A stretch of 64,000 bases of DNA from Roseomonas alba (GTDB lineage: Bacteria > Pseudomonadota > Alphaproteobacteria > Acetobacterales > Acetobacteraceae): assembly GCF_019430885.1 (NCBI RefSeq), contig NZ_JAHYBZ010000001.1, positions 62,001-126,000 of the forward strand, given 5' to 3'. Below, one piece after another: positions 6,984 through 29,789 of this stretch. The translations under genes and the position numbers were made by a program. Below the pieces are notes generated by a model. The model worked only from the letters and a program-made list of their open reading frames with translations, did no database searches and had not been told where the DNA came from. Position 1 is the stretch's first letter. Each line of letters starts with the position of its first letter.

Positions 6984-7020
6984 CTCGGATCAGCAGTCCC
7001 TTTTTCTGATCGGTGGAACC

Positions 7021-12939: not shown

Positions 12940-13895
12940 CAGGCGTGGGCGCGCATGGGGGGAATACGGAAGATCACGTCCTCGGTCGCCACGGTCACAT
13001 CCTCGACGCTGACGGCGAAGCGTTCCCGCAGCCGGTCCAGCACTTCCTGCACAAGAATCTCGGGGGCCGAGGCGCCGGCGGTGATGCCCACCGTCACGCA
13101 GCCATCGGCGAGCATGGGGTCGAGTTCCGCACCCCGCTGCACCATCACCGCGCGCGGCGCGCCGGCGCGTTCGGCGACCTCCCGCAGCCGCACGGAATTG
13201 GACGAGTTCGGCGCGCCCACCACGATGACCAGGTCGGACCGTGCCGCCACCGCCTTCACCGCCGCCTGGCGGTTGGTGGTGGCGTAGCAGATGCTTTCCT
13301 TCGCCGGCTCGGTGATGTCGGGGAAGCGGTCGCGCAGGATGGCGACGATCTCCGCCGTGTCGTCCACCGACAGCGTGGTCTGCGTCGTATAGGTCAGTTC
13401 GACGCCCTCGGGCGGCTGGACGCGGCGCGCGGCTTCGGCATCCTCGATCAGCGTCATGGCACCTTCGGGCAGCTGGCCCATGGTGCCGACCACCTCGGGA
13501 TGGCCCTCATGGCCGATCAGGAACAGGTGGCGGCCGCGGGCGTGGTGGCGTTCAGCCTCCCGATGCACCTTGCTGACCAGCGGGCAGGTGGCGTCGAGGA
13601 AGTACATCTCGCGCTGCTTCGCTTCCGCCGGCACCGATTTCGGCACGCCATGGGCGGAAAAGACCACCGGCTGCCCGTCATCCGGCACTTCCGACAGCTC
13701 GTCCACGAAGACGGCGCCGAGGTGTTCCAGCCCCTCGACCACGAAGCGGTTGTGCACGATCTCGTGCCGGACATAGACCGGGGCGCCGTGGCGCTTCAGC
13801 GCCTCCTCCACGATCCGCACCGCGCGGTCCACCCCGGCGCAGAAGCCGCGCGGGCCGGCGAGCAGGACATGGAGGGCAGGCTTCTCGGGGATCAT
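12939..13895 (-). CDS. ispH: 4-hydroxy-3-methylbut-2-enyl diphosphate reductase
   Basis: Last enzyme of the MEP isoprenoid pathway, a 4Fe-4S reductase making IPP and DMAPP. The three cluster cysteines are present at C19 ([10 protein letters not shown]), C104 ([11 protein letters not shown]) and C203 ([11 protein letters not shown]). The substrate-binding HEIVHNR (44-50), FSAHGV and SSNSVRL motifs are also there. 318 aa from ATG at 13895, where the sequence becomes typical ([21 protein letters not shown]); earlier starts add a non-conserved proline-rich extension. First gene of the overlapping ispH-thrB-rnhA set. The divergent lipoprotein gene starts about 100 bp away. Confidence 0.97.
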
Positions 13896-13998
13896 CTCGG
13901 TTCCGGATCGGGGAAGGGCAGGTTGCGGCCTGTCCCGGGCGGGCGGCACACTATAGATGGGGCGCCCGGGATCAAAGGGGGCAGGAAAGGTGGCGGTG

Positions 13999-14538
13999 AT
14001 GCGGCTGAATGCGGTGGCTTGTGTGATGGCGACGACGGTGCTGGCGGGGTGCGGCCCCACGGGCTACGAGACGGCCCGGCCTGCGCCATGCCCGCGCATC
14101 ACCATCCTCGCCGATGGTGCGGACCTGACGCGCTACAGGCCCGGTGCGGTGCCTGACCTTGCTTCCATGACCGCGGATGCCCGGCTGATCGGGTTCCAGG
14201 CGCGTTGCGACTACACCGACCGTCGGCGGTCCGTGGTCGCGGCGATCAGCGCCGTGTTCGAGGTCGAACGTGGCCCGGGCGCGACGGGTCAGGCGGCGGT
14301 GGAATTGCCCTGGTTCATCGCCGTGACCGACGCCAACGACTCGCAACTGATCGACCGGCGCGAATTCGTCACGCCCATCACCTTTGAGGGTAATGCCAAT
14401 CGCGTCCGGGTGCAGAGCCGCCCCGTCTCCTTCAACTTCCCGGCGGATGAGCGCCTGGTCGAGAATCACAACGTCCGCCTGTCCTTCCAGGTCACCCGCG
14501 AGGAGTTGGAGGCCAACCGCCGCCGCGGGCCGCGGTGA
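13999..14538 (+). CDS. Putative lipoprotein of unknown function
   Basis: 179-aa precursor with a clear lipoprotein leader: [18 protein letters not shown], lipobox LAGC with C18 as the modified residue. It is therefore predicted to be anchored on the periplasmic side of the inner or outer membrane. The mature part begins [25 protein letters not shown]. It is conserved in style with uncharacterised alphaproteobacterial lipoproteins that share the CPRxxIL.D.ADLTRYR pattern and a beta-rich C-terminal half. C83 (ARCDY) may pair with the cysteine in APCPR. GTG and other upstream starts would bury the leader, so ATG at 13999 is chosen. Its stop overlaps the GTG start of the next gene (GTGA), so the two are coupled. 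Confidence 0.75.
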
Positions 14539-21842: not shown

Positions 21843-21877
21843 GGCCCGGCTGGAGCAATCCAGCCGGGCCGATTTTA
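21843..21877 (+). terminator. Strong intrinsic terminator, rightward
   Basis: Perfect 12-bp stem GGCCCGGCTGGA (21843-21854) with loop GCAA and complement TCCAGCCGGGCC (21859-21870), followed by GATTTTAT. The T-run lies only on the plus-strand 3' side, so it stops rightward transcription, from the DUF1489 gene or a small RNA, before the convergent hyfI gene. It ends two bases before or within the hyfI stop region. Confidence 0.8.
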
Positions 21878-22414
21878 TCGGGCCGCCCGGATCGGCGGCG
21901 TCTCCGCCTCCAGCAGCGATAGCAGGCCCTCGAGCAGTTGCTCGGGCGAGGGCGGGCAGCCAGGGATCAGCAGATCGACCGGCAGCACGGCACCGACCCC
22001 GCCATGCACCGCATAGCAGCCCTTGAAGACACCGCCATCGACGGCGCAATCGCCGGCGGCAACCACCCAGCGCGGTTCGGGCGTGCAGGCCAGCGCGCGT
22101 TCCATCGCCTCGGCCATGTTCGCGCAGGCCGGGCCGGTCACCAACAACACATCGGCATGCTTGGGGGAGGCGACGAAGCGCAGCCCGAAGCGTTCCAGGT
22201 CATAGGCCACGTTCTGCAGCGCGTTGATTTCCAGCTCGCAGCCATTGCAGGACCCACTGTCCACCTCGCGGATCGCCAGGCTGCGGCCGAGCCGCGTCCG
22301 CGCCATGGTGGCCAGCCGTTCGGCCAGCGCCGCGACAGTCGGTTGCGGCACCGGCGGCGCGGCGTCGGTGAGGGGCTTGCCGACCAGGGCGCGGGCGAGG
22401 CGGGGCCAGAGCAT
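21875..22414 (-). CDS. hyfI: NuoB/HycG-like Fe-S small subunit of hydrogenase-4-type complex
   Basis: 179-aa subunit that carries the proximal 4Fe-4S cluster in membrane hydrogenases and complex I relatives. All four cluster cysteines are visible: C56 and C59 (SCNGCELE), C123 (AAGDCAVDGG) and C153 (PGCPPSPEQ). SPKHADVLLVTGPAC is the usual quinone/NiFe-side motif. ATG at 22414 overlaps the stop of the VOC gene (TGATG). On the minus strand it is the last gene of the hyf set but is separated from hyfG by the VOC gene and a repeat element. The terminator at 21843-21877 is on the opposite strand. Complete and probably functional as an electron-transfer subunit. Confidence 0.9.
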   Translation of the reverse strand: MLWPRLARALVGKPLTDAAPPVPQPTVAALAERLATMARTRLGRSLAIREVDSGSCNGCELEINALQNVAYDLERFGLRFVASPKHADVLLVTGPACANMAEAMERALACTPEPRWVVAAGDCAVDGGVFKGCYAVHGGVGAVLPVDLLIPGCPPSPEQLLEGLLSLLEAETPPIRAAR

Positions 22415-22794
22415 CAGGCGCACTCCGCGATACGTTCGGAGAAGACCAGGCGATTGCCGAAGGGATCGGCGATGTCCATGTCGCGCCAGCCCCAGGGCTG
22501 GTCGTGCAGGCCCGGCCGCGCGTGGCGATAGGCCTTGGCCGTCAACTCGGCGTGGAAATCCGCGAGTCCTGTCATGCGCAGGATCAGCTTGGTCCCCGGC
22601 GTGCCGTCGCCGAAATGCTCGCTGAGGAAGAGCAACAGCCCGCCGCGCGAGACCTGCGCGAAGATCGGCAGGTCGGGTGCGAAGCGATGCTCCCAATCCC
22701 AGCTCATGCCGAGGAAATCGACGTAGAACTCGCGTGCCTTGGCGACATCAAAGATGCGCAGGACGGGGATGGTCTCGTCGAAGAGGATGGTCAT
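22414..22794 (-). CDS. VOC superfamily (glyoxalase/bleomycin-resistance-like) protein
   Basis: 126-aa vicinal-oxygen-chelate fold protein. The pattern IPVLRIFDVAKAREFYVDFLGM is the standard N-terminal betaalphabeta start. VSRGGLLLFLSEHFGDGTPG and WGWRDMDIADPFGNRLVFSER complete the fold; the terminal DPFGN motif carries the usual last metal glutamate position (SER, near residue 120). It most resembles glyoxalase-superfamily proteins of unknown substrate. Its stop overlaps the hyfI start by one base, so hyfI translation is coupled to it. It sits between the large- and small-subunit genes of the hydrogenase-like complex, which is unusual and may reflect insertion. Confidence 0.85.
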   Translation of the reverse strand: MTILFDETIPVLRIFDVAKAREFYVDFLGMSWDWEHRFAPDLPIFAQVSRGGLLLFLSEHFGDGTPGTKLILRMTGLADFHAELTAKAYRHARPGLHDQPWGWRDMDIADPFGNRLVFSERIAECA

Positions 22795-22890
22795 GAGGCG
22801 CCCCCACGCACTGGAGAGGGGTCGGACTCTTCTTCAAACGTCACCCTGCCACAGGCCCAACGGTAGCCCCGATGCTTTCGCAGGGGGACC

Positions 22891-23116
22891 GAGAGGGGCT
22901 CTGCCCCTCTCGGGCTCACCCCGCCAAAGGCCGAAGGGCCATTGGAAACCTCGACTTGGTGCCGTGCGCCGCTGCCAGAATGGCGCCGAGACCCGTCCTT
23001 GCGCACGAAAGGCGTTTGGAGGGCGCAGCGCGAGCGCCGCGCTGGGTGCCAAAAGATTGCGTTCCAAGTGCTCCAAGCACTTGGCGGGGTGGTTTGGAGG
23101 GGCAGAGCCCCTCCAA
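22891..23116. repeat. Double-hairpin MITE-like element, locus 4
   Basis: Left end: GAGAGGGGC / TCT / GCCCCTCTC (22891-22911), then CCAAAGGCC / GAA / GGGCCATTGG (22924-22945), then AAACCTCGACTTGGTGC. Core near 22980-23006 reads GGCGCCGAGACCCGTCC followed by TTGCGCAC. Right end (B type): GATTGCGTT, then CCAAGTGC / GCACTTGG (23064-23084), then TTGGAGGGGC / AGA / GCCCCTCCAA (23094-23116). It interrupts the hyf cluster between hyfG and the VOC gene and is the clearest copy with two different ends. Confidence 0.82.
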
Positions 23117-23191
23117 CGGTGACAGCGGAAGAACGAGCGCCATCAGCAAGGCCCCTCGGCCCGTGCCCGGCAAAACTTGTGACCCCATCCG

Positions 23192-24703
23192 TCACAGGTC
23201 CACCCCGCTGTAGGAGCAGTTGAACGACTTGTTGCACAGCGGGAAGTCCGCGACGATGTTGCCTTCGATCGCCGCTTCCAGCAGTGGCCATTGCAGCCAG
23301 GATGGGTCGCGCAGGAAGCAGCCGCGGATCAGCCCGCCCTCGTCCAGCCGCACCCAGGCGAGGCATTCGCCCCGGAACCCTTCGATCAGGGCGACACCTT
23401 CGCCGGCCTGGGAGGGCAGGGGCACCAGCGTCTCGCCCGGCGGCAGCTCGGCGAGCAGCCGCCGCACCAGACCGATGGACGTTGCGAGTTCCGCGACGCG
23501 TACGCGCACGCGGGCATCGACGTCGCCGCCGGTCTCCACTGCGATGGGCGGCAGCAACCAGTCATAAGGCGCGTAGCCGGGCGTCAGCCGCGCGTCGAAG
23601 CCGCGCCCCGATCCGCGCCCGACGAAGCCGCCGGCGGCGAAGCGCCGCGCATGCGCGGGGTCCAGGAATCCGGTGCCCACCACCCGGTCCTGCAGGCTGG
23701 CGTGGCTGTCATAGATGCGGCGCAGGGCCGGGATTTCCGCCTCCACCGCGGCCAGCGCGGCGAGGATGAGTTCGGCCCCGCCCGGTGCGATGTCCGGCGC
23801 GATGCCGCCGGGCAGCACCCCGTCCATCATCAGCCGGTGGCCGAAGGCGGCGGCGCAGGCGCGCAGCACGCCCTCGCGCAGGAAACCGCAGCGGGCATGG
23901 GGGAAGGCGAAGGCCGCGTCGTTGCAGACGAAGCCCCAGTCGTTCAGGTGGTTATGGATGCGTTCCAGCTCGCCCATCACCGCGCGAAGCGCGATCGCGC
24001 GGGGTGGGATGGTGACGCCGAGCGCGGCTTCCGCGGCGGCGGCGAAGGCCCAGCCGAAGGCGACGGTGGAATCCCCCGACAGCCGCGCCGGGAACACCGC
24101 CGCCGCGCGCGGCGACTTGCCGAGCATCAGCGACAGCACGCCCTTGTGCTTGTAGCCGAGCCGCGCTTCCAGCCGGACCACGACCTCGCCCTGGATATGA
24201 AAGCGGAAATGGCCGGGCTCGATGACGCCGGCATGGATGGGGCCGACCGGGATCTGGTGGATGCCCTCGCCCTCGACGGGAAGGAATTCGGGTTGGGGCG
24301 GTTCTGCACCGACCAGGGACAGGGGGTTCGCCGACATCGGGCCGGCGATCTGCCAGCGGCCATGATCGAGCCAGGGGCGCAGATCGACCGCGCCCTCGGC
24401 GGTCAGGCCCCACAGGTCGCGGATCATGCGCTCGAAGCGGATCGCACCGGGACGGGCGGGGGAGAGCGCGGCGTAGCGCCCGCCCTCCGCCACGGCGGAG
24501 GCCAGGAAGATTTCGTTCGTCGTCTCGTCCAGGAAGGCGGCGTGGACCGTGCCGAGCTCGGCCCAGAGCCCGAGCAGGGCGATCGCCGGATCCTCCGCTA
24601 GCGCACCGGGCAAGCGGGCCCAGGCTTCCGCGCTGAGCAGGAAGCGGTCATGGGGCACGGCCCCTTGCGGCGCGCCGCCGCGGATCAGGGCTTTCGCGCT
24701 CAT
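23192..24703 (-). CDS. hyfG: HyfG/HycE-like large subunit without NiFe ligands
   Basis: 503 aa. An N-terminal NuoC-like domain (about 1-120, with FERMIRDLWGLTAEG) is fused to a NuoD/[NiFe]-large-subunit-like domain, as in HycE/HyfG. The first nickel-binding CxxC of hydrogenases should lie in a CGICG motif; here the aligned segment is RLSGDSTVAFGWAF (about 207-220), with no cysteine. The usual C-terminal DPCxxC is also lost; the protein ends DFPLCNKSFNCSYSGVDL (C490 and C496, spaced CxxxxxC). It therefore cannot hold a NiFe site and is complex-I-like in this respect. ATG at 24703 overlaps the hyfF stop by 4 bp. Fifth gene of hyfBCEFG. Confidence 0.9.
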   Translation of the reverse strand: MSAKALIRGGAPQGAVPHDRFLLSAEAWARLPGALAEDPAIALLGLWAELGTVHAAFLDETTNEIFLASAVAEGGRYAALSPARPGAIRFERMIRDLWGLTAEGAVDLRPWLDHGRWQIAGPMSANPLSLVGAEPPQPEFLPVEGEGIHQIPVGPIHAGVIEPGHFRFHIQGEVVVRLEARLGYKHKGVLSLMLGKSPRAAAVFPARLSGDSTVAFGWAFAAAAEAALGVTIPPRAIALRAVMGELERIHNHLNDWGFVCNDAAFAFPHARCGFLREGVLRACAAAFGHRLMMDGVLPGGIAPDIAPGGAELILAALAAVEAEIPALRRIYDSHASLQDRVVGTGFLDPAHARRFAAGGFVGRGSGRGFDARLTPGYAPYDWLLPPIAVETGGDVDARVRVRVAELATSIGLVRRLLAELPPGETLVPLPSQAGEGVALIEGFRGECLAWVRLDEGGLIRGCFLRDPSWLQWPLLEAAIEGNIVADFPLCNKSFNCSYSGVDL

Positions 24704-26139
24704 CCGATCACCCTTGCCGCGGCGCCGAGCATGGCCGCGAGCCCCGCCGGCATGGCGAGGCCGAGTGCCGCCGCCACCACCAGATGCAGCCAGAGCGGCG
24801 TCGCCGCCACCATCTCCTGCCAGCCCTTCGGCGATCCGTTCGGCACGTCGGGCGTTGGCGCGCCGAAGCACATGGCCTGCAGCACTGTGATCAACGCAGC
24901 AAGCGCGGTGACCATGCCGATCGCGAGGGGGATGGCGAGCCAGGGTGCCTCGGCCGCCGCGGTGGCCAACAGCCGGAACTCGGAGACGAACAGCAGCGCC
25001 GGCGGTAGCCCGCCGATGGCCGCGATGGCGAGGGCCAGCCCCCAGCCCAGCGCCGGATGCGTCGCGACCAGCCCGCCGATATCCACGATCTTCTGGCTGC
25101 CCTTAGCCTGAGACGCGCGGCCGACGCCGAAGAAGATCGCGCTCTTCACCAGCGAATGCCCGAGCAGATGCAGCAGCCCCGCGAGATTGGCGAGCGGCCC
25201 GCCCAGCCCGAAGGCGAAGGCCGCGATACCCATATGCTCGATCGACGACCACGCGAAGAAGCGCCGCGCATCACGCCGTCGCCACAGCGCCAGCGCGGCG
25301 AGCAGCACCGTCGCGAGGCCCATCGCCAGCAGGAAGGGCCCGGCCGCGATGGCCTGCGGGTTCGCGCCAACGATCGCCTTGTTGCGCAGCACGGCGAGCA
25401 TCGCCGCATTCAGCAGCAGCCCCGACAGCACGGCGGAGATCGGCACCGGCCCTTCCGCATGCGCATCCGGCAGCCAGGAATGCAGCGGCACCAGCCCGAC
25501 CTTGGTCCCATAGCCCAGCAGCAGGAAGGCGAAGGCGAGGTTCAGCGTCGCCGGGTCGCAGCGCGCCGCCACCTCCATCAGCGCCGTCCAGGACAGCCCC
25601 GTCTCCTCATCCAGCAGCGGCTGCGCGGCGAGATACAGAACGATGGTCCCGAACAGCGCGAGCGCGATGCCGACACCGCAGAGGATGAAGAACTTCCACG
25701 CCGCCTCGAAGGCCGCGGGGGTGCGGTGCACCGCGACCATGGAGACGGTGGCGAGGGTCGCGATCTCGATCGCCACCCACATCACGCCGAGATTGTCGGC
25801 GAGCAGCGCCAGGGTCTGCGCGCCCATGAAGATCTGGAAGGCGGCGTGGTAGGCGCGGATGCGCCAATGGTCGAAGCCTTCGCGGTCCAGTGTCGCCGCC
25901 GAGAACACCGCGGTGGTCAGCCCGACGAAGGCGGACAGCAGAATGAAAGGCAGGTTCACCGCATCCGTATGCGTCCAGCCCTGCTGCGCATAGGGCTGCG
26001 CCATCAGCACGCCGGCCATCAGGAAGGACACGGCGCTGACCGCGACATTGCCCCAGGACGCCTGCCGCAGATTCGGCACGGCGGCGAGGGCGACGGCCCC
26101 AGCCCAGGCCCAGAAGACGATGACCCATTGCAGCGGCAT
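24700..26139 (-). CDS. hyfF: Hydrogenase-4 component F-like antiporter subunit
   Basis: 479-aa polytopic membrane protein of the NuoL/M/N-Mrp antiporter family, predicted to pump protons or sodium. The family's key charged residues are visible. Glutamate is in ADNLGVMWVAIEIATLATV (TM5-type). Lysine is in LLLGYGTKVGLVPLHSWLPDAHAEGPVPISAVLSG (TM7 and the broken helix), and a further lysine is in LLHLLGHSLVKSAIFFGVG. ATG at 26139 overlaps the hyfE stop by one base. Earlier in-frame starts would read through hyfE in the wrong frame. Its role is coupling electron transfer by the HyfG/HyfI arm to ion movement. Confidence 0.93.
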   Translation of the reverse strand: MPLQWVIVFWAWAGAVALAAVPNLRQASWGNVAVSAVSFLMAGVLMAQPYAQQGWTHTDAVNLPFILLSAFVGLTTAVFSAATLDREGFDHWRIRAYHAAFQIFMGAQTLALLADNLGVMWVAIEIATLATVSMVAVHRTPAAFEAAWKFFILCGVGIALALFGTIVLYLAAQPLLDEETGLSWTALMEVAARCDPATLNLAFAFLLLGYGTKVGLVPLHSWLPDAHAEGPVPISAVLSGLLLNAAMLAVLRNKAIVGANPQAIAAGPFLLAMGLATVLLAALALWRRRDARRFFAWSSIEHMGIAAFAFGLGGPLANLAGLLHLLGHSLVKSAIFFGVGRASQAKGSQKIVDIGGLVATHPALGWGLALAIAAIGGLPPALLFVSEFRLLATAAAEAPWLAIPLAIGMVTALAALITVLQAMCFGAPTPDVPNGSPKGWQEMVAATPLWLHLVVAAALGLAMPAGLAAMLGAAARVIG

Positions 26140-26807
26140 CAGCGGCGTTCCCCGCGATGCTCTTCGAGCGACCCGGTGTCGAGCGTGTCGAAGCGTTCGC
26201 GGATCTGGAAGGCGAAGACGCCGGCGACCAGCGCCAGCATCAGCACCAGCGCGGCGGTGGACAGTTCCACCACCAGCGGCATGCCGGTCACGCCGATGGC
26301 CGCGAGGATCAGGCCGTTCTCGAGCGACAACAGCCCGATCACCTGGCTGATGGCGTTGCGCCGCGTGATCATCATCAGCATGCCGAGCAGCACGACGGAC
26401 ATGGCGAAGGCCAGGCTCTCGCGCGACAGCAGGCGGGCATCCTGGGTGGCCGGCAGGGTGACGAGGATGCACAGCCCGACCAGCGCGACGCCGGCGGTCA
26501 TCGACAGCCCGACGCCGAGCGCGGTCTCGACCGTCCGGTGCAGGTTCAGCTCGCGCACCAGGCGATGCAGCGCGAAGGGGATCAGCAGACCCTTCACGCC
26601 GAAGGCCAGCAGGGCGGTCAGGTACAGCCCCGGCACGCCCTGCGCATGCGCCGCCCAGGCCGCCGCCGCGGCCAGCACCATGCCCTGCATCGCGAAGGCA
26701 TTGATCACCGTCCCGATGCGCCGCTGATACAGCAGCACGAAGGACAGCAGCAGCACCGCCCCGCCGAGCAGATGCGACAGATCGTAGGTGAGCTGCCCGA
26801 ACCTCAC
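26139..26807 (-). CDS. hyfE: Hydrogenase-4 component E-like (NuoK-type) subunit
   Basis: 222-aa protein with about six hydrophobic segments. The C-terminal half is NuoK-like (RRNAISQVIGLLSLENGLILAAIGV, containing the buried glutamate of the K subunit), preceded by an N-terminal extension typical of HyfE. GTG at 26807 overlaps the hyfC stop (GTGA), and translation starts RFGQLTYDLSHLLGG. Fourth charged loop: QIRERFDTLDTGSLEEHRGERR at the C-terminus. Third gene of hyfBCEFG; coupled on both sides by overlaps. Part of the ion-translocating membrane arm. Confidence 0.9.
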   Translation of the reverse strand: MRFGQLTYDLSHLLGGAVLLLSFVLLYQRRIGTVINAFAMQGMVLAAAAAWAAHAQGVPGLYLTALLAFGVKGLLIPFALHRLVRELNLHRTVETALGVGLSMTAGVALVGLCILVTLPATQDARLLSRESLAFAMSVVLLGMLMMITRRNAISQVIGLLSLENGLILAAIGVTGMPLVVELSTAALVLMLALVAGVFAFQIRERFDTLDTGSLEEHRGERR

Positions 26808-27763
26808 GCGAGCCCCGTCGAGACGAACAGCAGCACCGCGCCGAGCAGCCCGAGCAGTAGCGCCGCGCCGAGGAATTCCGGCACGCGGAAGACGCGCATC
26901 TTGGCGATGGCGCTCTCGAAGGCGGCAAGCCCCAGCGCGAGCCCGCCGATCTTCACCAGCCAGGCGGCGAGCCCGACCACCCACCAATGCGGCGCCGACC
27001 CCGCCGGCGCCTGGCCGAGCGGCAGGAAGACGGCCGCGAGCAGCGACAGCCACAGCAGCAGCCGCATCTGCGCCGCATAGTCCCACAGCGCGAGATGCCG
27101 GCCTGAGGCTTCAAGGATCATCGCCTCATGCACCATGGTCAGTTCGAGGTGTGTGGACGGGTTGTCGACGGGGATGCGCGCATTCTCCGCGATGGCCACG
27201 GCGAGCAACGCGACCAGTGCGAGGCCCAGCGACACGCGCAGGCCGAGCGCGCCGTCCCGGAAGGACCCGGCGATGGCGTCGAGATTCGTGGTCCCGGCGA
27301 GGATCGCAAGCGACAGCGCCGCCACCACCAGCGCCGGCTCGGCGAGTGCCGCGAAGGACATCTCCCGCGCCGCGCCCAGCCCACCGAAGGGCGTACCGAC
27401 ATCCATCCCCGCCAGCGCCATCGCCACGCGCCCGACGGCGAGCAACCCCGCGACCAGGATCAGGTCCGCCAGCGGCGCGAAGGCCATGCCGCGCGCGAAG
27501 GACGGCACCAGCGCCGCGGCCGCGACGGCCGCCCCGGCCGCGAGATAGGGGGCGGCAAGCGAGATCGCCGAGGCGTTCTCCGCCAGCACCGGCCTCTTGC
27601 GCAGCAGCTTCAGGAGGTCGCGCAGGGGCTGCAGCACATGCGGCCCGCGCCGGCCCATCATCCGCGCCTTCATCCAGCGCACGACGCCCGTCAGCAGCGG
27701 TGCGGCGGCCAGGATCAGCGCGATGTGCAGCGCCTGCGCCAGGATGGACCAGACCACCGCCAT
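26804..27763 (-). CDS. hyfC: Hydrogenase-4 component C-like (NuoH-type) subunit
   Basis: 319-aa membrane subunit related to NuoH/HycD, which docks the hydrophilic arm on the membrane. Diagnostic features: MGRRGPHVLQPLRDLLKLLRK (the G..G..Q...D..K loop), MDVGTPFGGLGAAREMSFAALAEPALV (conserved Arg/Glu loop) and ARIPVDNPSTHLELTMVHEAM (the acidic loop). Eight or so hydrophobic segments. ATG at 27763 lies one base after the hyfB stop; its own stop overlaps hyfE. The presence of this subunit separates the locus from Mrp antiporters, which lack a NuoH homologue. Confidence 0.93.
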   Translation of the reverse strand: MAVVWSILAQALHIALILAAAPLLTGVVRWMKARMMGRRGPHVLQPLRDLLKLLRKRPVLAENASAISLAAPYLAAGAAVAAAALVPSFARGMAFAPLADLILVAGLLAVGRVAMALAGMDVGTPFGGLGAAREMSFAALAEPALVVAALSLAILAGTTNLDAIAGSFRDGALGLRVSLGLALVALLAVAIAENARIPVDNPSTHLELTMVHEAMILEASGRHLALWDYAAQMRLLLWLSLLAAVFLPLGQAPAGSAPHWWVVGLAAWLVKIGGLALGLAAFESAIAKMRVFRVPEFLGAALLLGLLGAVLLFVSTGLA

Positions 27764-27764
27764 C

Positions 27765-29789
27765 TCAGCGCGCCCCCATCCAGGCGAGCAGGGCCAGCAT
27801 CAGCACGACGGCGCCGAAGGCGAGGCCCAGGCACTGCCGGATCGATAGGTCGCGCAGCCGTTCGGCGCGCGCCGCGGCGGCGTCCCGCCAGCGGGGCAGG
27901 GCGCCTTCCAGGAAGGCCAGCGCCGGATCACGGAAGCCCGAATCCAGCACGGCGGGACTCGTCGCCCCGGGGGCGGGCATCGTCACCCGTTCGCGGGCGC
28001 TGAGCAGCCCCTGGCCCAGCATGCGCCGCAGTGGCTGGCCGAAGCCGGCCGCACTCGGCTGGGCGGCGGGATCGCCGAAGGGAAAATGCGGCGGCGCGGC
28101 GATGAAGCCGCAATCCCAGGCCGGGCCGCGCATCACGCCCGCCGGCGCGCGGCGCCGCACGACCCAGACCGCGAGCCCGACCGCGGCGGCCAGCAGCAGG
28201 GCCACGGCCAGCGGCCAATAGCGCGCCCCGCCCTCGGCCGCACCGATAGCATCCCAGCCGGCGCGCGGCGCCGAGGTTCCGACCATCACCCGCAGCGCCG
28301 GCTCGGCGAGGTCGAGCAGCAGCCCCGGCACCAGCCCCAGCACGACGCACAGGCCCGCCGGCACGGCGAGCGCCCAGCGCACCGCGCCGCCGGATTCCTC
28401 CGCCCCCGCCGCGCGCGGCGTGCGCGGACGGCCGAGGAAGACCAGCCCCCAGAAGCGCACCATGGCCGCGGCCGCCAGCGCCGCCGCCAGCGCGGCGAGC
28501 GCCGTGACCGCTGCCGCCCCCATCTGGAAGGCGATATCCCCGATCCGCCAGGCCGCCAGCAGCGCCTGTAACAGCAGCCATTCCGAGGCGAAGCCCGACA
28601 GCGGCGGCAGTGCGGCCGCGGCCATCGCGCCGGTCAGCGCTGCCCAGGCGGTCCAGGGCATGCGGTGGATCAGCCCGCCCAGCCGGTCGAGCTGCCGCGA
28701 CAGTGCGCCGTGCAGGACCTCGCCGGCCGCCAGGAACAGCAGCGTCTTGAACACCGCATGGTTCAACGTGTGCAGCAGCGCCGCCCCGGCCGCCAGCGCC
28801 GCCAGCGCCGGCAGGTCGGCCCCCCGGAAGGCCACGGCGAGCCCCATTCCGATCGCGATCAGCCCGACATTCTCGATGGTGGAGCAGGCCAGCAGGACCT
28901 TGCTGTCCTCCTCCAGATTGGCCCGCAGCGCCCCGATCACGGCCGACGCTGCGCCGAGCGCGATCAACGGCGCGCCCATCCAGATCGGCTGGGCCGGCCC
29001 CATCAGGTCGAACAGGAAGCGCGCCAGCACATAGAGCGCGACCTTGGTCATCGCCCCCGACATCACCGCCGAGACGTGGCTCGGCGCGGCGGGATGGGCG
29101 AGCGGCAGCCAGACATGCAGCGGCGCCAGCCCGGCCTTGGACCCCGCCCCGGCCAGGACCAGCAGCATCACGGCCAGCGCCCGCAGGCCTTCCGGCGGGG
29201 CCTCCCGCAGCACGGCGAAGGCGACGTCGCCCGCGCCCCCGGCCAGCACCCCGAAGGCGAGGACCAGCGCCAGCCCGCCATAACCGGCGAAACCCAGATA
29301 GATGCGCGCCGCCTCCCGGTTCTCGGCTCGCGCGTGGTCATGGGCGACCAGGGCCCAGGAGGCGAGGGACATGGCCTCGAAGCCCAGCAGCAGGGTGAAG
29401 CCATCCGCGGCGAGCAGCGTCAGCGCCATGCCGGCGATGAAGAGCGGCCAGGGCACGAGCTCCCGCGGCGCCACCCGGCCATGCACCCCCCCGAAGGCGT
29501 ACAGCCCGGCACAGGCCACCGACAGCCCCAGCGGCAGGAGAAACCAGGAAGACAGCGGATCGAGCGCCAGCCGCGCCGGCCCCCAGGGCGGCCCGAAGGG
29601 CAGTTCCATCACGGCCGGACCGTTCAGCAGTCCGCCGATGCCGCCCGCCACCAACCCGAGACCCGCCACGGCTACCGCCCCGTGCACCGTTCTGGCTCCG
29701 GACGGAAAGCGGGCAAGCGGCAGCGCGGCCACGCCGAGCGCGGCGAGCAGGCCGACCAGCAGAGCCAGTGCCGTCAGCATGCAGGGCAT
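27765..29789 (-). CDS. hyfB: Hydrogenase-4 component B-like antiporter subunit
   Basis: About 674 aa, the long NuoL-like subunit (E. coli HyfB/HycC type). Motifs: FEAMSLASWALVAHDH (TM5 glutamate), GAGSKAGLAPLHVWLPLAHPAAPSHVSAVMSG (TM7 lysine and broken helix) and LLHTLNHAVFKTLLFLAAGEV (TM8 lysine). FASEWLLLQALLAAW follows. Two near-by starts are possible, 29789 (MPCMLTALALL) and 29780; neither has a strong ribosome site. First gene of the minus-strand cluster; the promoter must lie in the 29790-29975 interval, facing away from the TRAP genes. Long upstream open frames on this strand are by-products of high GC and are not used. Confidence 0.92.
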   Translation of the reverse strand: MPCMLTALALLVGLLAALGVAALPLARFPSGARTVHGAVAVAGLGLVAGGIGGLLNGPAVMELPFGPPWGPARLALDPLSSWFLLPLGLSVACAGLYAFGGVHGRVAPRELVPWPLFIAGMALTLLAADGFTLLLGFEAMSLASWALVAHDHARAENREAARIYLGFAGYGGLALVLAFGVLAGGAGDVAFAVLREAPPEGLRALAVMLLVLAGAGSKAGLAPLHVWLPLAHPAAPSHVSAVMSGAMTKVALYVLARFLFDLMGPAQPIWMGAPLIALGAASAVIGALRANLEEDSKVLLACSTIENVGLIAIGMGLAVAFRGADLPALAALAAGAALLHTLNHAVFKTLLFLAAGEVLHGALSRQLDRLGGLIHRMPWTAWAALTGAMAAAALPPLSGFASEWLLLQALLAAWRIGDIAFQMGAAAVTALAALAAALAAAAMVRFWGLVFLGRPRTPRAAGAEESGGAVRWALAVPAGLCVVLGLVPGLLLDLAEPALRVMVGTSAPRAGWDAIGAAEGGARYWPLAVALLLAAAVGLAVWVVRRRAPAGVMRGPAWDCGFIAAPPHFPFGDPAAQPSAAGFGQPLRRMLGQGLLSARERVTMPAPGATSPAVLDSGFRDPALAFLEGALPRWRDAAAARAERLRDLSIRQCLGLAFGAVVLMLALLAWMGAR

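Follow-up and report, generated by a model that had tools for sequence, protein, structure and literature searches.

A Hyq-type hydrogenase-related membrane complex of Roseomonas alba with conserved polar residues in place of the NiFe site

The window analyzed here, a 64,000-nucleotide stretch of the Roseomonas alba genome, contains six genes on the minus strand (hyfB, hyfC, hyfE, hyfF, hyfG and hyfI, positions 21875-29789 by their open reading frames) for a membrane complex built like hydrogenase-4, in which the large subunit HyfG has lost every residue that binds nickel and iron. Judged from its genes, the complex is an orthologue of the Azorhizobium caulinodans Hyq complex, belongs to the energy-converting hydrogenase-related (Ehr) type, and is not new in kind; by the same evidence, it is not a Hyp-matured NiFe hydrogenase. 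We consider it probable (roughly 0.6) that this Hyq-type Ehr complex is a proton-coupled, ion-moving membrane oxidoreductase on the group 4 hydrogenase/complex I frame, with the NiFe site replaced. An earlier sequence-only reading of the window had noted the missing ligands, an observation that is confirmed here and that is already described for Hyq orthologues (PMC3357923). What is new is the uncoupling of the complex from Hyp and nitrogenase genes in the family, a map of the residues kept and lost, and a group of decaying sister complexes.

Alignment of HyfG with Escherichia coli HycE puts S209, S212, S497 and G500 at C241, C244, C531 and C534, and all four NiFe-binding cysteines of a group 4 [NiFe] hydrogenase are therefore gone. 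The segment RLSGDS, which the sequence-only reading had put in the place of CGIC, indeed occupies residues 207-212. That reading was also right that DPCxxC is absent, but not that the protein ends in DFPLCNKSFNC: the true C-terminus is longer (DFPLCNKSFNCSYSGVDL, residues 486-503, ending SGVDL). HyfG stops at what we take to be the cut point of the hydrogenase maturation protease and has no C-terminal extension, again at variance with group 4 [NiFe] hydrogenases. Conservation was counted in 115 distinct orthologues (at least 48% identity, window included) after L006, L090, L047, L050, L124 and one identical row were dropped, the identity of that row being judged on the last 330 residues; an earlier tally of 120 rows had included repeats. 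SGD is kept in 113, NKS in 114, N495 in 114, S497 in 113, Y498 in 114 and G500 in 115, and a cysteine at any of the four NiFe positions occurs in one orthologue (L059). Because it is nearly fixed among distinct orthologues, the site is not a product of chance. These residues would form a conserved polar pocket (S209-G-D211, N491-K492-S493, N495, Y498 and G500) that does not depend on cysteines and stands where the NiFe site was.

The sequence-only reading had proposed C490 and C496, which it numbered correctly, as a possible new ligand site, and we rejected this candidate. In the alignment, the DPCxxC proline falls opposite C496 and a hydrophobic position opposite C490, both off the ligand positions, and the pair is in print as C491 and C497 of HyqG (PMC3357923). 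C260, C490 and C496 occur together in 102 of the 115 orthologues, each cysteine being singly lost in some; all three are absent from Cupriavidus, Burkholderia and Allomeiothermus homologues, and not one of the 42 rows with identity under 48% is complete for them (a single row, the best, reads CCG). From these counts, the polar residues are the constant part of the site and the cysteines the habit of one clade.

Much else of the hydrogenase and complex I machinery is retained. The loop glutamate E162 (HycE E193) is kept in 114 of 115 orthologues, and H252, R363, E405 and R444 (HycE H284, R395, E437 and R478) in all 115, the proton-path roles of the HycE residues being taken from a study of E. 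coli formate hydrogenlyase (FHL) (PMC9474812). At the two positions of the quinone-headgroup histidine and tyrosine (named after PMC7684303), at which HyfG departs from complex I, stand I161 (isoleucine in 114 of 115) and G210 (glycine in 115 of 115). HyfI retains the four Fe-S cysteines that the sequence-only reading had described as intact (C55, C58, C122 and C152), with C55-x-x-C58 a hydrogenase-type CxxC rather than the adjacent CC of NuoB in complex I, and these ligands read CCCC in all 108 orthologues with a complete small subunit; of the other seven, five sit at contig ends, one is truncated inside the gene and one (L161) has no detectable small subunit. Among loci scoring at least 250 bits, 66 of 67 HyfB have the pump residues EKKE, and 107 of 108 HyfF have EKNE, the letters found in E. 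coli HyfF; the residues are labeled after NuoM, and the letters themselves were checked in the alignment. From this map, the site is neither that of a hydrogenase nor the quinone site of complex I, yet the proton path and pumps remain.

Phylogeny and fold agree with this placement. A tree of 81 rows was rooted at its midpoint; it has several long branches, and its bootstrap had not settled completely. In it, HyfG groups with its own genus inside the Hyq clade, which starred branches part from three FHL-type, one Ech-type and two complex I rows, and the phylogenetic check that the sequence-only reading had called for thus puts the large subunit outside the NiFe controls. The best fold match of the predicted HyfG structure (mean predicted local distance difference test score, pLDDT, 83.6) is the E. 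coli FHL large subunit (7z0s_E, TM-score 0.82), followed by complex I. Residues 139-174 and 480-503 fall below a pLDDT of 50; the latter include the C490/C496 region, for which modeling had been suggested.

For HypD, the absence of maturation genes, noted by the sequence-only reading for what was in view, extends to the whole genome (99% complete), which has no HypD match (HypA-C, HypE and HypF were not searched). Nor is there a match over cut-off for NifH or for PF00374, whose one weak match is hyfG itself; together with the tree, the lack of HypD and PF00374 matches bears out the assignment of the complex to the Ehr type rather than to the NiFe hydrogenases. Formate dehydrogenase alpha subunits gave no match over cut-off in the genome (22 weaker matches, two of them long). 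HyfG finds a match at E 1e-100 or better (a threshold chosen here) in 75 of 200 genomes sampled from the order, and HypD is not over cut-off in 63 of the 75. NifH is over cut-off in 1 of 75 genomes with hyfG versus 7 of 125 without. In the window's genus, all 18 sampled genomes carry hyfG, one has HypD and none has NifH over cut-off. Because only 12 of the 75 have HypD and one NifH, recycling of nitrogenase-derived H2 is not the general role of the hyfG complex, and, as far as gene content tells, it is not the role in Roseomonas alba.

In the mechanism we favor, electrons would travel via the one [4Fe-4S] cluster of HyfI, to or from a small substrate or cofactor bound in the pocket of HyfG, and the electron partner would be supplied from outside the operon. 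Protons would move along the retained hydrogenase/complex I path (E162, H252, R363, E405 and R444), and HyfC and the antiporter-like HyfB and HyfF would couple the redox chemistry to ion movement across the membrane. The sulfane reductase MBS of Pyrococcus may serve as a precedent, by analogy, for loss of NiFe with the pocket turned to other chemistry. It likewise lacks the quinone residues, but it retains two of the four NiFe cysteines, its proximal cluster is held by three cysteines and it lacks the proton path (PMC7684303), whereas HyfG and HyfI have none of the four NiFe cysteines, four Fe-S cysteines and the proton path, and the complex is therefore not of the MBS kind.

Several observations weigh against an ion-moving oxidoreductase of this kind. 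The residues kept and lost are what can be read directly, and from them we infer electron flow, pumping and substrate; the pocket loops fall within the part of the model with pLDDT below 50. The canopy aspartate (HycE D529), conserved across hydrogenases and complex I, is N495 in HyfG and asparagine in 114 of 115 orthologues. In one Hyq operon (L161, genome G057), which comprises C, E, F and G, no small subunit was detectable despite 7.6 kb of downstream sequence. HypD is somewhat enriched with hyfG, being over cut-off in 12 of 75 genomes with the gene as against 6 of 125 without (Fisher p 0.01). Finally, the behavior of Azorhizobium hyq mutants is what turnover of H2 by Hyq would produce.

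The Azorhizobium Hyq complex was published as an "endo-hydrogenase" encoded by hyqRBCEFGI (PMC2650096, PMC2930871, PMC3357923). The 2009 paper treated HyqG as a NiFe enzyme (PMC2650096); Sprecher (2012) found HyqG of eight genera to be without both CxxC motifs, with C258, C491 and C497 conserved instead, and called a NiFe center in HyqG uncertain if not unlikely (PMC3357923). The window complex shares with Hyq the same six subunits and gene order, the lack of both CxxC motifs, equivalents of the three cysteines (C260, C490 and C496) and the four Fe-S cysteines, a likeness that for A. caulinodans HyqG rests on its published description rather than on a sequence fetched here; the operon of Rhizobium johnstonii 3841, from a species group listed in the Hyq papers, is 52% identical in HyfG. 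Unlike Hyq, the window has no hyqR or other helix-turn-helix gene directly upstream, a divergent TRAP DctQ gene standing upstream of hyfB instead; it has a VOC gene before hyfI and no exact NifA-type box near hyfB, and its genome lacks a HypD match and a NifH match over cut-off. Sigma-54-like sites with three mismatches allowed were not above chance (215 found, 246 expected). No Hyq paper after 2012 was among the matches listed in our literature searches.

Ehr complexes have been described as lacking the Ni/Fe-binding residues, with function not established (PMC6349859, PMC10284858, PMC7894505). In Geobacter, Ehr is reported to reach higher abundance on formate than under hydrogen-containing conditions. 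With its group 4-like subunit set, antiporter-like subunits and missing Ni/Fe-binding residues, the window complex belongs to this class, as the sequence-only reading had recognized while overlooking the mutant data on the Azorhizobium orthologues; Ehr is, however, a loose class, and Geobacter Ehr was compared by description rather than by sequence. Ehr has also been the subject of work by Coppi and Marreiros. E. coli hydrogenase-4/FHL has the same fold and likewise comprises subunits B, C, E, F, G and I, but in the window complex HyfG lacks the NiFe ligands, and the operon lacks HyfA/D/H, HycH/I and maturation genes (hyfA- and hyfH-type genes were sought by eye only). With complex I it shares the core subunits and the proton-path and pump residues, but it has no NADH module in the operon, has lost the quinone histidine and tyrosine, and has CxxC for CC in the small subunit.

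The strongest competing explanation, which we nevertheless consider unlikely, is that Hyq interconverts H2 and protons at a center other than Hyp-made NiFe and exchanges electrons with the quinone pool. The physiology of Azorhizobium speaks for it. At 20 uM O2, hyq deletion raised H2 evolution from 12 to 175 (16 to 540 with hupSL also deleted), and at less than 1 uM O2 lowered it from 7,100 to 2,600 and, without Hup, from 61,000 to 14,000; a nifK hupSL strain still evolved 56,600 (PMC3357923). Nodules evolved H2 only with a hup hyq double mutant (PMC2930871), and retention of the hydrogenase proton path would fit as well. However, hyq deletion also alters growth on N2, and that deficit persisted with 20% H2 (PMC2650096). 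Moreover, the Azorhizobium data are whole-cell, the low-H2 nifA control is unmatched because the nifA strain is hup+, and in the window's family the genes mostly occur without nitrogenase or Hyp genes. We also know of no hydrogenase that works without metal-binding cysteines. A long shot in the same direction is that Hyq may be an undescribed ion-moving hydrogenase without Ni, Hyp-made Fe(CN)2CO or metal-binding cysteines in the large subunit, using the HyfI cluster, the SGD/NKSxNxSYxG pocket and the proton path; if true, a Ni-free Hyq hydrogenase would be widespread in alphaproteobacteria, many of them without Hyp genes or nitrogenase.

It is improbable that the complex is a quinone oxidoreductase, i.e., a complex I core minus the NADH module that would reduce or oxidize quinone at the HyfG/HyfI/HyfC interface. 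The complex I fold and proton-path residues are as this would require, and a quinone cavity has been proposed for Hyq (PMC3357923), but both headgroup residues are replaced almost without exception and the HyfI CxxC is hydrogenase-like. We hold it very unlikely that the redox part has only a leftover structural role and that ions are moved by gradients alone. Relatives that have lost Fe-S ligands yet stay in operons (L129, L156, L157 and Allomeiothermus L041) would suit such a transporter, as would the lack of a recurring partner gene: neighboring genes were chosen by their G+C content at the codon positions (174 candidates at 46 loci, 86 of them scanned), and in the families listed (the first 25 of 98 matched) only helix-turn-helix regulators exceeded three members (10 and 6). 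The window's own clade, however, keeps the Fe-S ligands and proton path almost without exception. Scarcely credible is a NiFe hydrogenase of an unusual type that would bind its metals through C260, C490 and C496, because, although most orthologues have all three, each is singly lost in some, C496 is off the ligand position, HyfG has no C-terminal extension, and HypD is missing from the genome and, over cut-off, from most hyfG genomes.

Relatives of the complex show what can be lost from it. In the tree, 29 rows from the window's family cluster together (100/100) inside the Hyq rows; such complex I-like sister operons, descended from Hyq, are found at loci L126-L131, L133-L142, L146-L154, L156-L158 and L163-L165. 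Their large subunits have mostly lost the SGD site and the canopy arginine, while 23, 26 and 23 of the 29 rows still have equivalents of HycE H284, R395 and E437, respectively. An antiporter signature, which misses some true antiporters, was found near the operon in none of 31 sister loci versus 108 of 115 Hyq loci (anywhere in the locus, window excluded). In the better alignments (L142, L148, L129/L156/L157 and the paralogue L159), the pump residues are replaced; L159 is a Hyq-like operon with pump residues GLVH/TLLQ in a genome (G098) that also has an intact Hyq copy (L160). The claim that sisters have lost their pumps thus rests on aligned residues, many of them gapped in weaker alignments, and on an imperfect signature, and a rough tally of the charged residues within membrane windows (6.5% in sisters, 6.0% in Hyq) speaks against it by showing no separation. 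A BLAST inventory had suggested that membrane subunits were missing altogether from distant loci; this was rejected when reading frames and hidden Markov models showed hydrophobic subunits in most.

The Fe-S positions of sister small subunits read GCGS in three related genomes and CCCS in two, and no small subunit was found in L140, L163 or L141, the last with only 1.4 kb remaining downstream. Among the GCGS genomes, pN/pS (the ratio of nonsynonymous to synonymous change, from stop-to-stop frames) is 0.13-0.16 for EhrL and 0.39-0.49 for EhrS; other pairs range from 0.17 to 0.73. Because the EhrL values are low, the sister complexes are apparently still maintained under selection. The converse loss is seen on the Allomeiothermus silvanus plasmid pMESIL01 (L041), where an Ehr small subunit (13278-14150) has TDES in place of CCCC and the membrane subunits keep the pump residues EKKE/EKNE; a sequence search for relatives of the Allomeiothermus protein on viral contigs found none. 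Since sisters lose pumps and Allomeiothermus loses Fe-S ligands with pumps kept, the redox half and the pump half can apparently decay separately. Narrow literature searches found no publications on the degenerate sisters.

A search of 72,556 plasmid records gave 90 matches to HyfG, including 68 that span 80% or more of the protein, and some of the matches are true FHL or Ech types. On Methylovirgula plasmid pHY1 (L039, 1654-8216), a Hyq operon adjoins a divergent, plasmid-borne F-type ATP synthase operon.

Features of the window operon are listed in the table. The six genes and full set of membrane modules claimed by the sequence-only reading are borne out by the open reading frames and by concordant Pfam and NCBIfam assignments (PF00361 twice, PF00146 and PF01058, with HyfG matching Complex1_49kDa over and NiFeSe_Hases under cut-off). 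Gene order is that of Hyq except that a VOC gene, whose stop overlaps the hyfI start (TGATG), is inserted before hyfI. A VOC gene also adjoins hyfG in 10 of 38 relative loci searched, some of these loci being repeats of one genome. The dispersed repeat beside it (∼227 bp) has partial copies in the window near 7015, 10137, 39243, 50710, 56353 and 61715 and at least 55 genome-wide matches (scoring covered 40 of 522 candidate places), and resembles a miniature inverted-repeat transposable element in that some ends match in inverted orientation.

Table. Coordinates of the hyf operon and associated features in the window (scans used 26801 as the upper coordinate of hyfE; hyfF residue numbers carry one extra start residue, as in E. 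coli HyfF)
Feature	Position	Strand	Description
hyfB	27765..29789	-	Antiporter-like subunit, 674 aa; PF00361; pump residues E138/K218/K249/E403
hyfC	26804..27763	-	NuoH-type membrane anchor, 319 aa; PF00146; conserved charged residues
hyfE	26139..~26807	-	NuoK-type; GTG start inferred; NF008556 and PF00420 both below cut-off
hyfF	24700..26139	-	Antiporter-like; PF00361 and NF005043 over cut-off; E126/K214/N245/E388
hyfG	23192..24703	-	Large subunit, 503 aa, lacking NiFe ligands; over cut-off for PF00346, below it for PF00374
Codons of S209-G-D-S212, where CGIC would stand	24068..24079	-	HyfG/HycE alignment
Codons of HyfG residues 486-503, DFPLCNKSFNCSYSGVDL, in place of a DPCxxC end	23195..23248	-	
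Dispersed repeat between hyfG and VOC gene	22887..23113	-	About 227 bp
VOC (Glyoxalase_7) gene in operon	22414..22794	-	PF19581
hyfI	21875..22414	-	Small subunit, four Fe-S cysteines with hydrogenase spacing; PF01058

This complex is widespread in aerobic bacteria and has been published as an H2-recycling hydrogenase, though it lacks every known hydrogenase ligand. That conflict can now be tested, with the nearly invariant pocket residues named as targets for mutation; and because the genes in this family mostly occur without nitrogenase or Hyp genes, strains are pointed out in which a Hyp-made center could not be the source of any H2 activity. The separate decay of the redox and pump halves, in turn, bears on how the two are coupled in complex I-like machines.

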